Shown: piece after piece, positions 11,969-19,179 of the stretch | How the letters are laid out: each line of letters starts with the position of its first letter | How positions within the stretch are numbered: position 1 is the first letter of the stretch | Source of the DNA: Gammaproteobacteria bacterium | GTDB taxonomy: Bacteria; Pseudomonadota; Gammaproteobacteria; SZUA-140 | Length of the DNA: 34,214 nt | Assembly: GCA_021648525.1 (NCBI GenBank) | Contig: JAKISP010000042.1 | Coordinates: 1 to 34,214 of the forward strand | Reading direction: 5' to 3' | Program-made: the position numbers and the translations under genes | Notes under the pieces: generated by a model | Database searches by the model: none | Told to the model about the DNA's origin: nothing | Seen by the model: the letters and a program-made list of their open reading frames with translations, nothing else

Positions 11969-12307
11969 CCCATTGCCTCGCATTGGTCGTTTTCTCGCGT
12001 TGGAAAGTGCTCTGTAATTTGCATGTTCTTACTATAGCATATCGACCGAAATGGGCGATTTTTCGCAGAGCTGGATCTGAGTCATCCAGGTGGTCTGCTC
12101 AGTCTATCATTCACAAAAGTTCGAAATAGAATCACTATTTCTGCCTTTTTGCTTAATGCCGGACGAACGAATATGCCTAAATTTGAGCGCTAAGACAGAG
12201 AGGAGGAGGGTATTACGTGCACGTTCCTAAGGTTTCATTAACCTCCCGAGGAATAGAGTAGTGAACATAGCCACCAGGTGGTCACTGTTATTTCTTTGGA
12301 GGATAAA
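11969..12307. other. Divergent intergenic region between glgB-like and DUF2860 genes
   Basis: About 340 bases with no credible gene. Near its right end, AGTGA at about 12263 and TCACT at about 12284 flank CCACC-A-GGTGG, a nested inverted repeat that could be an operator or a small hairpin. A strong ribosome binding site, GGAGGA, at 12298-12303 serves the DUF2860 gene. A TATAGCATA stretch near 12033 might belong to a promoter for the glgB-like gene. No terminator or RNA gene is recognisable. Confidence 0.4.
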
Positions 12308-13240
12308 ATGAAAACTCTATTTATCACCGCATTTTTAACACTGGGCGCGGCTCTATTCGCAGATACACTCTGGGCAGACATTGACAGGCAGGGCTGGAAC
12401 GGCTCTATCGGTCTGGTGCTGGGAGGGGTGAGCAGCGAAAATCAGCTTGATGCCTACAGTGGTAAAAAACGCATTGAGTCACTGACGGAGGCACCTCTCC
12501 GTTTCGATTATGATTTCCTACTTCCTGAAATTCAACTGGGCTACACTTTTCAAAACAATATCACGCTTTTTATGGATGGCAGCCTGCTTGATGGTGGAGG
12601 CAGTGGTATCCGCTATACCTTTTCCGATAAAACTCGCCTGTCGCTATCGATACCCCTGTTTTTGGGTATCAGTGGTGAGGTGTGGCAGGACCCTTATTTG
12701 ATCCAGAAAGAGCGCAGGACCACGGATGCCAGGCTGGACGGTGCGATCGGCATTTCCCTTGATAATATCTGGGGAACCTATGCCTCGATTCATTATCTCT
12801 ATCAGGATATAGCCATAAAAAATGACGGTTCAGGTGAATCGCTTAAATCCCGCCTGACAGCGGCTGAAATCGAGCAACTAAGGCGCAGCAACCGGTCCCA
12901 CAGCGCCACTATTTCCCTGCCACCTTTTAGCCTGGGTCATGGTCTCTATCTGGTTGGCGGGGCCAATTACACCGACACCGATGCGCAAGGTGAAGCCAAT
13001 AGTTTCACCTCGCAAAGTGTTGATTTAACACTCGCTTATGAAAAAAAATATTTTGAATTTTTTGCGCATATCGCGGTGGGTGAGAAGCGATACCGGGCGG
13101 TTAACCCCATCTTCGCGAAGAAACATGAAAGTGACTTTGGCACAGTGGCTGCCGGCATCACCTTCTGGCACCCCTTTAATTGGCAAAACAGTAGTCTGGA
13201 GTTGCTGATCGCGGTTATGTTCACACTGAAAAGCAGCTGA
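12308..13240 (+). CDS. DUF2860-like outer-membrane protein, apparently C-terminally altered
   Basis: A signal peptide (MKTLFITAFL... ending LWA) is followed by a protein rich in alternating aromatic/polar strands. The opening WNGSIGLVLGGVSSENQLDAYSG and the LPEIQLGYTF segment resemble DUF2860, a family of predicted outer-membrane beta-barrels of unknown function. ATG 12308 is chosen over GTG 12278 because GGAGGA lies 4 bases upstream and the signal peptide then starts properly. The last residues (LELLIAVMFTLKSS) do not look like a closing barrel strand. From about 13196 another frame encodes an outer-membrane factor fragment, so the last strand or strands seem lost at a deletion junction. It heads the degraded efflux cassette. 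Confidence 0.6.
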   Translation: MKTLFITAFLTLGAALFADTLWADIDRQGWNGSIGLVLGGVSSENQLDAYSGKKRIESLTEAPLRFDYDFLLPEIQLGYTFQNNITLFMDGSLLDGGGSGIRYTFSDKTRLSLSIPLFLGISGEVWQDPYLIQKERRTTDARLDGAIGISLDNIWGTYASIHYLYQDIAIKNDGSGESLKSRLTAAEIEQLRRSNRSHSATISLPPFSLGHGLYLVGGANYTDTDAQGEANSFTSQSVDLTLAYEKKYFEFFAHIAVGEKRYRAVNPIFAKKHESDFGTVAAGITFWHPFNWQNSSLELLIAVMFTLKSS

Positions 13241-14144
13241 TTGACCTCAATAAGGCTCAGGGCAATGTGGTTGGCTACTATCAGGATGCCTATCAGGCGG
13301 GTTTGATACCGTTTAGCTATTACCAGGGGCATTTCAAGTGGGTTTGGTGCCCTATGAGTTTTTTCTGGATGCCAAGAATAGCCAGCGGCAAAGCAAAATT
13401 CGTGTCCAGGAGGTGCAGCTGGCAAAACTGAAAACGCGCCAATTCATGAATATTTTACGGGGTCGTTTTCCTGCGGATGAGCTGTGGGTAAGCGACGATA
13501 AACTCTTCCCGAGTCTGGACTCTTTCATCGCAGAGATCCCCGCAACAACACTGGTTAATCGTCCTGATATTCAAGCGGCCTTTTCGGAACTGCAAGCCTT
13601 TAACCGTTTAGAGCGCTCGGCAAACAAGGCATTGCTGCCGCAACTCAATCTCAGTGCATCACTGTCCAAAAGTGGGCGGACACTGAAAAAAGCACTGGGT
13701 GGTGATCTTCTCTGGCAGTTGGTGGGTGGCTTGACTCAGCCACTCTTCAATGGTGGGCAACTTAGCGCCATCGCCAGACAAAAATCAGCAGAGGCAGTGG
13801 CGGTCTGGTGGCAATACCAGAACAGAGTGCTTAAGGCGATGCTGGAGGTTGAAAATGCGCTGGCCAATGACAAATTGTTGCGTTGGCAGCTTGAGCAGAA
13901 AGAGGCGGAGGTCAACAATTTAGAGAAAAAAATCGGCTCAGCCAAAGAGCGCTTCAGCGACGGTGATTTGTCTCTTTCCGATTATCTACTGATTAAAATC
14001 GAACAGATTGAGGTGCAGATGGCACTGATTGATGTTGAGGTTCTCTACTTCAAAAACCGTATTGACCTCATCACTGCACTAGGGCTACCAATCGAACCCA
14101 TCCAGCAAAGTGACAACGGGGGAAATAGTGATGAAAAACCGTAA
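13204..14144 (+). pseudogene. TolC-type outer-membrane factor, N-terminal part lost and frameshifted
   Basis: Only the second half or so of an RND-associated outer-membrane channel remains. A first piece, read from 13204, encodes ADRGYVHTEKQLIDL and AYQAGLIPFSYYQ. Reading then shifts near the G4 run at 13326-13329; one more G would join it to GAFQVGLVPYEFFLDAKNS. The remainder is a good match: PATTLVNRPDIQAAFSEL (family RRPDI motif), LLPQLNLSAS, TQPLFNGGQL, the second-repeat coiled coil and final LDLITALGLP-type helix. Around 200 N-terminal residues, including the signal peptide, are missing. The longest single frame is 13338-14144. It overlaps the start of the membrane-fusion gene, as expected of an operon. 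Confidence 0.75.
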
Positions 14145-14886
14145 ATGGTGGCTGATCGCCGCCCTGCTTATTCTGTTTTCGAGCATCATTTTAGTGGATG
14201 CATTGGAAGATGTGGCAGAGATTGAGCAAAAGCAGGTATCACAATATCGTCCGCTGGTCTCGATTGTGAACCTGCAACCACAGGATAACAGTGGCATGAT
14301 CCAGACCTATGCTGAAATCAGACCGCGCTGGGCGACGACCCTGAAGGCGCAGGTGAGTGGGGAAGTGGTGCAGATTTTTGAGCGTTCATCGGTGGGTGAG
14401 CAGGTTAAAAAAGGGGCGCTGTTAATTCGCATTGAGGGGAGTCGCTATCGGGCTGATCTGTTTGATGCGGAGCTGCTGCTGGCAGAGGCAAAACTCAATT
14501 TTTTACAGGCGAAAAGCAAATCGTCTCAGGATCAAAAAAATTGGCAACGAGCTGGTATTGGCGGAATACCATCGGACCTGGTGTTAAACATACCACAACT
14601 GGTAGTGGCGGAAAAAACCGTGAATACCGCTAAAAGCCGCGTGCAAGCCGCCCGGAAAATGCTCGCTTATACCGAAATCCGAGCGCCGTTTGCAGGGATG
14701 ATTACTCGCCGTAATATCAGCATTGGGCAGATCGTTTTTGAAGGCGATGAGCTGTTGCATATTATTCAAAATGAACATCAGGAAATCGTACTCTCATTGA
14801 GCCGAAAGCAGTGGAATATGCAGGCAAAAAACTGGCAAGAGCAGACCGCATCCATTCGTAATAGCGACAACCTGGTATCTGGATGA
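14131..14886 (+). pseudogene. RND membrane-fusion protein, C-terminal part lost
   Basis: A periplasmic adaptor (HlyD/AcrA type). An N-terminal membrane anchor (WWLIAALLILFSSIILV) is followed by the lipoyl half-motif VSGEVVQIFERSSVGEQVKKGALL, a helical hairpin, then the second lipoyl half IRAPFAGMITRRNISIGQIV and the start of the beta-barrel domain. It ends abruptly at residue 251, whereas typical adaptors have about 100 more. A further open stretch in another frame (14849-14961) encodes WYLDDKDQLRQFIATV, of origin I cannot assign. ATG 14131 is preferred to GTG 14110 because GGGGGAAA precedes it. It has probably lost function, since the C-terminal pump-contact domain is missing. Confidence 0.75.
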
Positions 14887-14952
14887 CAAAGATCAATTGC
14901 GGCAGTTTATCGCCACGGTACTTTTCCATCGGAATGAACAAATTATCATTGA

Positions 14953-15822
14953 AACCCCCTCGAAGTGCGGGTAATTGTCAAAAACCGTGAAGCTTCCAGA
15001 GACAGCATGGCTGATCTGATGCAGATGCGCCTGCAAAGTGAAGAGGGTCGCTGGTTTCCACTCACTGTTGTGGCCACGATTGAGTCCACCTATGTTACCG
15101 ATTACATCGTACGCCGGGATGGAAAACGGATGAATACCATCTATGCTTCCATTGATAAAACGCAGGTGGCACCTGCGGATATTGCTCAAGACCTATTTGA
15201 CTATTTCATTCCTGATCTGGAGCAGCGTATTCCGCAAGTTGCTGTCATTGCGGCGGGTGAGCTGGAAGAGATTGGCAATTTGAAGAGCAATCTGATCAAC
15301 GCATTATTCTTCGCCTGCGTTCTTATCTACACCCTGTTGGCGATTCCATTGAAATCCTATTGGCAACCACTCATTATTATGTCGGTGATTCCATTCGGCT
15401 TTGTCGGTGCCGCCATGGGGCATCTGATGATGGATTTGCCACTGAGCTTCCTCTCTTTTCTCGGTATGCTGGCGCTGACGGGTGTAGTGGTCAATGATTC
15501 ACTGCTGCTGATTACACGCTACAACCAGAATAAAGCGCAAGGCAGTACCGTTCATGAGGCGTTGATGGAGGCCGGGCCGGGGCGATTCAAGGCGATATTT
15601 CTTACCACTGTCACCACCGTGGCGGGATTGATGCCGTTGATGAGTGAGACCTCTGAGCAGGCGCAATACCTGATTCCTGCAGCGGTTTCTCTGGCTTATG
15701 GTGAACTGTTTGCGACGCTGATCACCCTTATTTTAGTGCCGGTGCTGATATACAACTCTTCTTTATTAAAAAATCACCACAAAACAAGAAGGAACACATT
15801 TTATGAAAAAATAAATTATTGA
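14953..15822 (+). pseudogene. RND efflux permease, only the C-terminal quarter remains
   Basis: The frame opens after a stop at 14950 with NPLEVRVIVKN, typical of the second large periplasmic loop of AcrB/heavy-metal type RND pumps. It continues RWFPLTVVATIE, then the transmembrane segments: NALFFACVLIYTLLAIPL, PLIIMSVIPFGFVGAAMGHL, SFLGMLALTGVVVNDSLLLI and the final ATLITLILVPVLI. ALMEAGPGRFKAIFLTTVTTVAGLMPL is a clear family signature. About 290 residues remain of roughly 1030. The N-terminal half with the proton-relay residues is absent, so it cannot pump. It is joined to the cut adaptor gene by a short unreadable stretch, which marks a large internal deletion. Confidence 0.85.
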
Positions 15823-16623
15823 TCATTCATCTCAGCTTGTTTGCTTTTTTGTCCAGCATGGCCATGGCCGAAGAATCTGCTTCCAGAGTGCTGAATTATG
15901 ATGTTTTAGTGGAAGGGGAAGATGTGGGGGATGTGGCCTTGAAACTGACTCAAAATGGGGAGGGGTATCTCATTGTTGAACACAGCCGTATTCAGGTGTC
16001 ATCGTGGATGTGGACGCTTGATATCACCACTGTTCAGAGCGAAACATTTCAACAGGGTGTTGGTTTAATCAAGTCCGATAGCAAAACCTGGTTTGAAGGC
16101 ATTTCTTACTGGAGCAAAATTAATGCTGGTGGTGATAAGCTGTTCGTTGAGTTTACTGAAATAACCAGCATGACTGACCAGGAGGAGAAACAGCTCTCGC
16201 ATCTCTCTTTTGCTATTTCAGGCAAAGTGTCCGCCAATACAGAAGAGGCAATTTCACTCTCAGAAGCGCTGTTTTCAGGCCGAAATGAGACAGCACGCAA
16301 GGGGGGGGGCACGGAAAGACTTCGACACCACCTTTAGTAATTTACCGCTATTTATTCAGGCATATAAAGGTAAACCGTTACCCAAAAAACTCAACATTCT
16401 GGATACCGAAGAGCTGGAAATCGGTACAGTGAGCATCCGTGACCTAGGGGTTAAAACCATTTCGATCGGCAAACAAAAAATTGAAGCCCGCTATTTGGCA
16501 CTCTCTGATAACAAGTCTAAACCCCTGCAGCTGTGGATAAAAGAGGATGATTTATTGCGATATTTTGTTCGCTATACCGGTGAGGATGAGGATGGCCCGT
16601 TTGAGATCATTCTGAAAATGTGA
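15803..16623 (+). pseudogene. Secreted protein gene (DUF6134/DUF3108-like) with two homopolymer frameshifts
   Basis: A well-placed start (AAGGA at 15789-15793, ATG 15803) runs into TAA after two lysine codons. Removing one base from the A6 run (15806-15811) gives MKNKLLIIHLSLFAFLSS and a typical signal peptide. The frame then encodes a mostly beta protein (YDVLVEGEDVGDVALKL) until a G9 run at 16301-16309. With G8 it would continue into RKDFDTTFSNLPLFIQAY and end FEIILKM. I infer similarity to DUF6134/DUF3108-type periplasmic proteins only from the opening pattern, with low certainty. As written the two open frames are 15819-16337 (TTG start) and one ending at 16623. It is decayed, misread, or switchable at the G run. 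Confidence 0.6.
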
Positions 16624-16638
16624 AATTAAGGAGATTGA

Positions 16639-16956
16639 TCGGAAGTCGTTACCTCAACGGGCGGACGGTTATCCAGTATTGATCTTAGTCATGGACAGCG
16701 TAAGCGTTTGGCATTATTGCAGATGTACTGCGAAAATAGGAAAATCTTGCTGTTTGATGAGTGGGCGGCAGATCAGGATCCCGGATTCAAAGAATTTTTT
16801 TATAACGAACTCCTGCCTGCCATGAAAACGAGTGGCAAGACGGTTATAGTCATTTCTCATGATGAGCGATACTTTGATTGTGCCGATAAGATACTCAAAC
16901 TGGATGAAGGGCAATTAATCACGATGAAAAATGAACATTCTTATTATCGAAGATGA
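16639..16956 (+). pseudogene. Cyclic-peptide-type ABC exporter, C-terminal ATPase fragment
   Basis: About 105 residues of the nucleotide-binding domain of a SyrD/PvdE-like exporter. The ABC signature LSHGQRKRLALLQMY, Walker B KILLFDEWAADQDPGFKEFFY and the switch-His motif VIVISHDERYF are present. Walker A and the whole transmembrane domain are missing. FDEWAADQDP is typical of the cyclic-peptide/pyoverdine precursor exporter family. The frame is open from 16639; there is no plausible start codon. Its end overlaps the response regulator start by 26 bases, suggesting the genes were once one transcript. It cannot function alone. Confidence 0.8.
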
Positions 16957-17623
16957 AGCCGATCTGGCCGCAGCCATTGGTGACTATTTGACATTGCAGG
17001 GTGCAACATGTGATTTTGCCTATCAGGGCGAATCGGGCGTAGTGCTGGCGCAGGCGCAGCGGTTTGATGTGATCATTCTTGACTTGGTGTTGCCAAAAAA
17101 GGGAGGCTTTGAGGTCTGTGAACAACTACGCAGTGAAGGTAATAACACCCCTGTTTTGATGCTAACCGCCTGTGACACCAATACCGAACAACTTAAAGGA
17201 TTTCAGGCGGGTATTGACGACTATGTTATTAAACCCTGCCCAATGCCTTTACTCTGGGCACGTTTGCAAGCGCTGTATCGACGCGATCACCCACCAGCAG
17301 CACAGCTATCAATAGACACACTCACGCTCTATTTCAAGGAGCTAAGGGTGGCCCGTGAAGGTTACGAAATCAAGCTGACGCCCACCGGCTGGAAGATGCT
17401 TGAGCTTCTAGCACTACGTAGCCCTGAGGTGGTTTCAAGAGCAGAGTTAGAAGATTATGCCTGGCCTGATCACGGCCCTGACCATGAAGTCGATGCCGGA
17501 AATTTTAATGTTCAGTTACACCAGCTACGCAAGGCGGTGGATAAATCTTTTGCCTATCCTCTGGTTCGCACGCTTGTCGGAGTGGGGCTGTGCCTAAGAA
17601 AAAAAACGGCCTTTAATGCCTGA
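16931..17623 (+). CDS. OmpR/PhoB-family response regulator
   Basis: 230 residues with an intact receiver domain: acidic IEDEAD at 6-11, phospho-acceptor Asp51 in IILDLVLPKKGG, Thr79 in LMLTA and Lys101 in VIKPCP. A winged-helix DNA-binding domain follows at about 130-225 (ELRVAREGYEIKLTPTGWKMLELLALRSPEVVSRAELE, ending LVRTLVGVGLCL). The kinase gene begins inside its last codons (8-base overlap), so both are co-translated. It lies directly after the degraded export cassette, which it probably regulated. All key residues remain, in contrast to the genes before it. Confidence 0.92.
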   Translation: MNILIIEDEADLAAAIGDYLTLQGATCDFAYQGESGVVLAQAQRFDVIILDLVLPKKGGFEVCEQLRSEGNNTPVLMLTACDTNTEQLKGFQAGIDDYVIKPCPMPLLWARLQALYRRDHPPAAQLSIDTLTLYFKELRVAREGYEIKLTPTGWKMLELLALRSPEVVSRAELEDYAWPDHGPDHEVDAGNFNVQLHQLRKAVDKSFAYPLVRTLVGVGLCLRKKTAFNA

Positions 17624-18902
17624 AAAACCTCAACGGACAAAAACACTGGCACAGCAAGTGCGTTGGCAACTGCTATGGCTGGGTGGTGGTTTATTGATCG
17701 CTTGTCTGTTATTGCTATTTATTTTTACCTGGCATGCCGCCGAGTTAGCGACGAATAGCCTGATGAAGCTTGAAGCGCAATCGTTACTTCACCAAACCAC
17801 GAAAAATCCCGGTTTAGCACTTCCTCAAGGTGAAAGCTTCAGCGCCTACCGGCAATGGCAAGAGGTGCCTGAATCGTTGAAACAGCATTTTAATCGCTCT
17901 CTTATTGATCGTGGTGAGATTATTGAAGTGATTATTGATGACCGTGAAAAAGAGACCGAATATCTCTATTTTCTGCACCATATTGATGATGATGATTATG
18001 GTGAAATTTTTCTCTTCAATCGTTACAGCGCCAGTGAAGTGGATGAGTATTTTAGCGCCTTTTTAAACACCGCACTAAATCAAGCCATTTGGCTGGCACT
18101 GATTATTTTTTGTCTGCTATTTTTTCTGGTGAGCTGGTTGATTCGTCGCACAACCGAACCTTTACAGCTACTCAGTCAATGGGCTATCAGTCTGGGTAGA
18201 CATCCTGAACAGTCGTTGGATATTAATTTTTCGATTGAAGAATTAAATGAAATTGCAATGCAGTTACGTGGGAGCGTTGATCGAATACGGGCGTTTAACC
18301 AGCGTGAACAACAATTTTTAAAACATGCCAGCCATGAGTTGCGCACTCCTTTATCCATTATTCAGGCCAGCCTGGATACACTGGACTTACAAAATCATCA
18401 AGCAACGCAGCCGATTGTAAAACGGGCACTCAAAGCCAGTTCCAGCATGATTCGCTTATCCAGCACGCTTCTGTGGTTAGCGAGGGAGCCGAAAAGTCCC
18501 ATTGGTAAGTCAGAGGTTGATATTCATCAATTGTGTCAACAGGTGATTGATGATCACCGTTACCTGCTTAAGAATCGGAAGATTAGCATCCAGACCCGCA
18601 TAGCGATTGATACCTTACTGATTGAAGGCGACCTGTTTTCCATCGTGCTGTCAAACCTGCTCAAAAATGCCTTTCAACACAGTGTCAATGGCGCCATCAG
18701 GGTCGACATTTCAAATCACAGCCTGCAAATAAGCAATCCGATAAAAGCGGAAAACAGTGATGAAATTGACGCATCCACATCAGGGTTTGGACTAGGGTTA
18801 CAACTGGTACAGCGCATTTGCCTTCAACAGGATTGGCAGTTCTCTTTTAGCAACGAGACTCGTCAAGTCGTTGCAACAGTTTCCTGGTGTAGAAGAACGT
18901 AA
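17616..18902 (+). CDS. Sensor histidine kinase
   Basis: 428 residues. Two membrane segments (about 19-40 and 156-176) flank a periplasmic sensor of about 115 residues with an acidic cluster, HHIDDDDYGE at 121-130, that might bind cations or cationic peptides. A HAMP-like linker is followed by the H-box KHASHELRTPLSII with phospho-acceptor His240. The N-box LSNLLKNAFQHS and the G2 box GFGLGLQLVQRI lie in the ATPase domain. The usual DxGxG of the G1 box is not obvious (ISNPIKAENSDE), a variation seen in some kinases. It is paired with the preceding regulator. The ligand is unknown; the neighbouring efflux remnants suggest an envelope toxin, metal or peptide. Confidence 0.9.
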   Translation: MPEKPQRTKTLAQQVRWQLLWLGGGLLIACLLLLFIFTWHAAELATNSLMKLEAQSLLHQTTKNPGLALPQGESFSAYRQWQEVPESLKQHFNRSLIDRGEIIEVIIDDREKETEYLYFLHHIDDDDYGEIFLFNRYSASEVDEYFSAFLNTALNQAIWLALIIFCLLFFLVSWLIRRTTEPLQLLSQWAISLGRHPEQSLDINFSIEELNEIAMQLRGSVDRIRAFNQREQQFLKHASHELRTPLSIIQASLDTLDLQNHQATQPIVKRALKASSSMIRLSSTLLWLAREPKSPIGKSEVDIHQLCQQVIDDHRYLLKNRKISIQTRIAIDTLLIEGDLFSIVLSNLLKNAFQHSVNGAIRVDISNHSLQISNPIKAENSDEIDASTSGFGLGLQLVQRICLQQDWQFSFSNETRQVVATVSWCRRT

Positions 18903-19093
18903 TTGTCTATTTTCTAAGGTCAGGGGGCTGGCCATAGTCATTTATTGAAAATACGAAATAATTCAGATGATTTACCGCTCACTTTCAGGACAACTTAAGC
19001 CCGATTACCCTGTAATCTAGAGGTGAGGTATTGAAATAGAGTGGTTTGCCTGTGCTATCATTACGCGCGCATAGATAATGTTAAGAATAATAA

Positions 19094-19179
19094 TGGTGCC
19101 GAGGGAGAGACTCGAACTCTCACGACCAAAGGCCACCGGATTTTGAATCCGACGCGTCTACCAGTTCCGCCACCCCGGC
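19094..19179 (-). tRNA. tRNA-Leu(CAA)
   Basis: An 86-base gene with encoded CCA. The acceptor stem GCCGGGG pairs with CCTCGGC, including one G-U. The anticodon loop TTCAAAA gives anticodon CAA (plus-strand 19143-19145). The variable arm is long, as in leucine tRNAs, and the T-loop GTTCGAGTC is present. It reads away from queA, which begins 90 bases to its right. Confidence 0.96.

Follow-up and report, generated by a model that had tools for sequence, protein, structure and literature searches.

A nine-guanine tract at the frame change of a DUF6134-like gene: probable decay within a putatively inserted efflux cluster

Long G runs are prone to slippage during replication, and one that falls where a gene changes frame raises the question of whether it is a switch or a scar. 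We address this question for a tract of exactly nine Gs at positions 16301–16309 of the forward strand of a 34,214-base stretch of DNA ('the window'), 47.7% of which is G+C. The window is contig C73 of a genome (G000) of 3.36 Mb, in 76 contigs, that is 99.91% complete. A first-pass annotation had proposed two readings of the tract, contingency switch or decay. On the evidence below, the tract is very probably the frameshift site of a pseudogene, within a cluster of about 7 kb that is itself decaying.

Two open frames, offset by one base, meet at the tract: frame 0, from 15807 to 16334, and frame 1, from 16174 to 16620. Both are open from 16174 to 16334, and so stop codons alone bracket the shift only to about 160 nt. 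It is placed more closely by a 3-periodic codon model, for which 19 intact genes of the window served as the training set. Frame 0 scores highest as far as about 16300, frame 1 beyond; the best change point, 16304–16307, lies inside the tract, and change points no more than 2 log units from the best extend from 16271 to 16317. The annotated tract is thus confirmed, and its placement exactly at the frame change is supported by the model rather than proven. To either side of the tract, the coding signal remains strong. A promoter and terminator scan of 15500–17000 gave no more candidates than shuffled sequences did. The features of the gene are these:

16301–16309, + strand: G9 tract at the frame change (sequence; codon-model change point 16304–16307)
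15807–16337, + strand: DUF6134-like exported protein, N-terminal half, frame 0, with a signal-peptide-like opening (PF19630 positions 1–96, E 9.9e-5)
16174–16623, + strand: DUF6134-like protein, C-terminal half, frame 1 (PF19630 positions 99–167, E 5.4e-4; 30% identical to L172 across 101 aa)
15803–15814, + strand: putative original start region, an ATG preceded by an AAGGA-type ribosome site (probable second lesion, from sequence)

The two ORFs read as halves of one DUF6134-like protein, for they match consecutive parts of the profile, albeit at sub-threshold scores: scored separately, the halves reach 22.9 and 20.5 bits, both below the curated gathering cut-off of 27.9. The frame 0 body begins with a lysine-rich and then hydrophobic stretch that resembles a signal peptide. 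Export of the product, as first annotated, is therefore plausible, but it does not separate a switch from decay. The start of the gene appears to be broken as well. The ATG at 15803 lies in a different frame from the protein body, runs into a stop three codons on, and is overlapped by a stop in frame 0. A TTG at 15819, which overlaps the stop of the preceding RND remnant (TTGA, 15819–15822), may possibly act instead as a translationally coupled start. A change in tract length alone would leave the probable start lesion in place, and would probably not suffice for a clearly working gene.

Most of the stretch around the gene is damaged as well. Of five congener stretches taken around queA, four (G003, G004, G009 and G006) have glgB next to it; the fifth, from G005, contains queA but no glgB within its 15.7 kb. 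Nucleotide homology runs on the left to about 12063 in all four, and resumes on the right at about 19025 in the two nearest (G003 and G009) and at about 19093 in the other two. The DNA between was matched in none of the nine other genomes of the genus, and no direct repeat at its edges was convincing. An insertion of some 7 kb beside a tRNA gene would be the simplest account; repeated loss in the congeners is possible, and less simple. (The queA gene of congener G009, L178:13691–14702, is itself in two pieces, residues 8–210 and 203–350, a possible frameshift or draft error.) The insertion and its contents, apart from the DUF6134-like gene, are as follows:

12064–19024, edges approximate, no strand: lineage-specific insertion of about 7 kb, from glgB to tRNA-Leu/queA (congener comparison)
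12278–13240, + strand: DUF2860 outer-membrane protein gene, 3' end lost (matches only residues 9–311 of a 337-aa relative in L158)
13210–14144, + strand: TolC-type outer-membrane efflux remnant, about the first 172 residues unmatched, then two frames (comparison with intact relatives)
14110–14966, + strand: RND adaptor (HlyD/MFP) remnant, a block of about 50 residues lost and a frame change near the 3' end (comparison with intact relatives)
14953–15822, + strand: RND pump (ACR_tran) remnant, reduced to its C-terminal part, from residue 793 of at least 997 (comparison with intact relatives)
16639–16956, + strand: cyclic-peptide-type ABC exporter remnant, positions 438–533 of 547 (NF007813, E 9.1e-38; TIGR01194, E 1.6e-37)
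16931–17623, + strand: response regulator, open, full-length match (profile match)
17616–18902, + strand: sensor histidine kinase, open (profile match)
19094–19179, − strand: tRNA-Leu (CAA) at the right edge, 3' end towards the insertion, some 70 nt away

The ABC exporter remnant amounts to the last 100 or so of about 550 residues; NF007813 is PRK10522, a multidrug ABC transporter, and TIGR01194, matched at the end of the model, describes cyclic peptide exporters. Intact relatives of the upstream operon occur in a Chromatiales MAG (L034) and in G093 (L158). In both of these nearest intact operons the contig breaks off within the RND gene or shortly ahead of it; L034's genome gave no DUF6134 match, and G093 gave no match to the N-terminal half. 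Outside the cluster, each of the 15 genes scanned has an open frame and matches a family, so that the damage stays within the cluster, a pattern that an assembly-wide error rate would not give. Not all of the insertion is dead, to judge by its response regulator and kinase, which appear intact. The decay proposed by the first-pass annotation is accordingly supported by large deletions in the neighbours, by the lineage-specific insertion and by the probable start lesion. In the manner of a pseudogene, the DUF6134-like gene is interrupted here vs intact in a homologue (L172), and lesions run through its operon neighbours.

That homologue, L172:7870–8823 in genome G286 of the same class, carries both halves in a single frame of 318 aa, with 21% identity over 151 aa to the N-terminal half and, as listed above, somewhat more to the C-terminal half; it has no Pfam match at E 1e-5. 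The longest G/C run in its gene is 5. In 20 full-length DUF6134 loci, likewise, the first 600 nt counted from where the match begins contain no G/C run longer than 5; strong profile matches in G062, G182, G115:C53 and G215 lie outside this set. Phase variation would have homologues share the tract at differing lengths; no such tract occurs in L172 or the 20 loci, all of them distant relatives from other species. The N-terminal half has no match in 93 other genomes, congeners included, and the C-terminal half has none in 19 other genomes of the order or on the plasmids searched. In a sample of the class, with a cut-off of E ≤ 0.01, the C-terminal half has matches in three of 368 other genomes; the match in G286 (E 2.9e-7) is the clear one. 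The DUF6134 profile itself matches in 34 of 369 genomes, and in ten stretches with weaker profile matches neither half was matched. A literature search on DUF6134 returned no paper.

How unusual is a G9 tract in this genome? The annotation had held long G runs in coding DNA to be unusual, a claim that fails here. G/C tracts of nine or more number 24 (12 per strand), against expectations of 14.0 from base composition, 8.9 from a first-order model and 3.0 from a second-order model, all built from 145 kb of the genome with G8+ tracts excised; the excess is roughly two- to eight-fold, depending on the model. Per window, about 0.09 such tracts are expected (first order) vs about 0.24 from the genome count. 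The tract is uncommon for a single window, and ordinary for this genome. Among congeners, G003 has 21 tracts of this length, G004 has 25 and the other seven have 5 to 13.

Assigned to classes by hand, nine of the 24 are in frame and spanned by a single Pfam domain match. The genes concerned encode a glycosyltransferase-41/TPR protein, an FGE-sulfatase, a 2-oxoacid dehydrogenase E2 (G10), a DUF498 protein (G11), a class-III aminotransferase, CheW, DUF945 and DUF4381 proteins, and an amino-acid kinase. Two more lie in ORFs that Pfam identifies (GlnE and DUF3943), but away from the domain; three are in ORFs that match no family clearly (L111, L114 and L115), and another nine fall between genes or at the edges of ORFs. 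Just one, 16301–16309, sits at a frameshift. Such a distribution does not suggest a collection of surface genes under switching, and the nine in-frame, domain-spanning tracts show that tract lengths in the assembly are generally called correctly.

At a threshold of eight there are 58 distinct tracts, which cover all 97 eight-base matches. A G8 tract in L019 looked like a possible second frameshift; this reading was discarded, as the site is simply the border between an NHL-repeat gene and the multihaem-cytochrome gene next to it, and a start codon follows close behind the tract. For ORF pairs near G8 tracts in L004, L101 and L134, the junction is 80–95 nt from the tract. A G13 tract (L131:40–52, in G000:C69) and a G11 tract (L030:1501–1511, in G000:C21) lie near contig ends and are perhaps assembly-limiting or artefactual. 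In a family member, G011, runs of at least nine Gs recur every ~17–46 nt in contigs C51, C127, C159 and C209, some at contig ends, as a repeat array or a read artefact.

From these observations we infer the following history. The cluster—outer-membrane protein, TolC, adaptor, RND pump, DUF6134-like protein, ABC exporter and two-component system—would have entered the lineage beside tRNA-Leu and is now eroding. Selection would have been relaxed first; slippage at the G9 hotspot could then have shifted the frame. In genes under selection, out-of-frame variants would be purged, as the in-frame G tracts elsewhere in the genome suggest; in a decaying cluster they would persist. The strong coding signal on both sides of the tract implies that decay is recent, or that the product continues to be made in part.

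The alternatives each have something in their favor. The tract length might be a sequencing or assembly error, and the gene whole at this site. Homopolymers are where such errors usually occur, and this is a single site in a 76-contig draft, but we consider a miscall unlikely: the genome's other coding G9–G11 tracts are in frame (nine with a domain match across them), the flanking genes scanned are all open and family-matched, and the large deletions next door would be left unexplained. Alternatively, slipped-strand mispairing at the tract might toggle the exported DUF6134-like protein. Nine Gs fall within the length range of known switches and are long enough to slip, the frames are one base apart, the product looks exported, and a coupled start at the TTG is possible. 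Such a contingency locus is very unlikely even so, and the annotation's suggestion of one is not supported: the probable start lesion would remain, and the upstream operon genes are destroyed; neither the intact relative nor the 20 DUF6134 loci have a comparable tract; genome-wide, genes with long tracts include those for the 2-oxoacid dehydrogenase E2, the aminotransferase and the amino-acid kinase; and the congeners have no copy for comparison.

Long homopolymers can also slip at the RNA level, and slippage of RNA polymerase or of the ribosome along the tract might yield some full-length protein. The persistence of coding signal on both flanks would fit such a bypass; the probable start lesion and the absence of a conserved tract in relatives speak against it, and we regard it as exceedingly improbable. 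Highly improbable, too, is a tract that is switching still, in which the TTG would serve as a coupled start and a slippage subpopulation would export the DUF6134-like protein beside the intact two-component system, all in a genus where long G tracts are mildly over-represented. Ordinary decay of the DUF6134-like gene, and not an on/off switch, is probably what the tract records.

Known systems bear on the comparison. In Campylobacter, decayed capC genes with poly-G tracts upstream are attributed to lineage-specific pseudogene formation and not to phase variation (PMC7168839). Homopolymer-frameshifted pseudogenes in general have the halves of one domain in adjoining frames at a long mononucleotide run, with further lesions nearby, and the window gene differs from them in no notable way. 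Poly-G contingency loci of the Campylobacter and Neisseria type also resemble it, in having a tract of about nine Gs within the coding sequence of an exported protein and a frame off by one. Unlike those loci, it has a probable start lesion, a destroyed operon, relatives that lack the tract, and a genomic background in which housekeeping genes carry long G tracts in frame. The comparison shows how weakly a long G run, met where the frame changes, argues for phase variation unless the gene, its operon and the genome's G-tract background have been checked. The importance of the case lies mainly in annotation, with little beyond, and the insertion between glgB and tRNA-Leu/queA offers a clear example of a gained efflux and two-component cluster in decay. 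As for DUF6134 (PF19630) proteins themselves, the window gene differs in its broken frame and in halves that score under the gathering threshold; the halves match consecutive parts of the profile all the same, and L172 provides a distant, intact relative.
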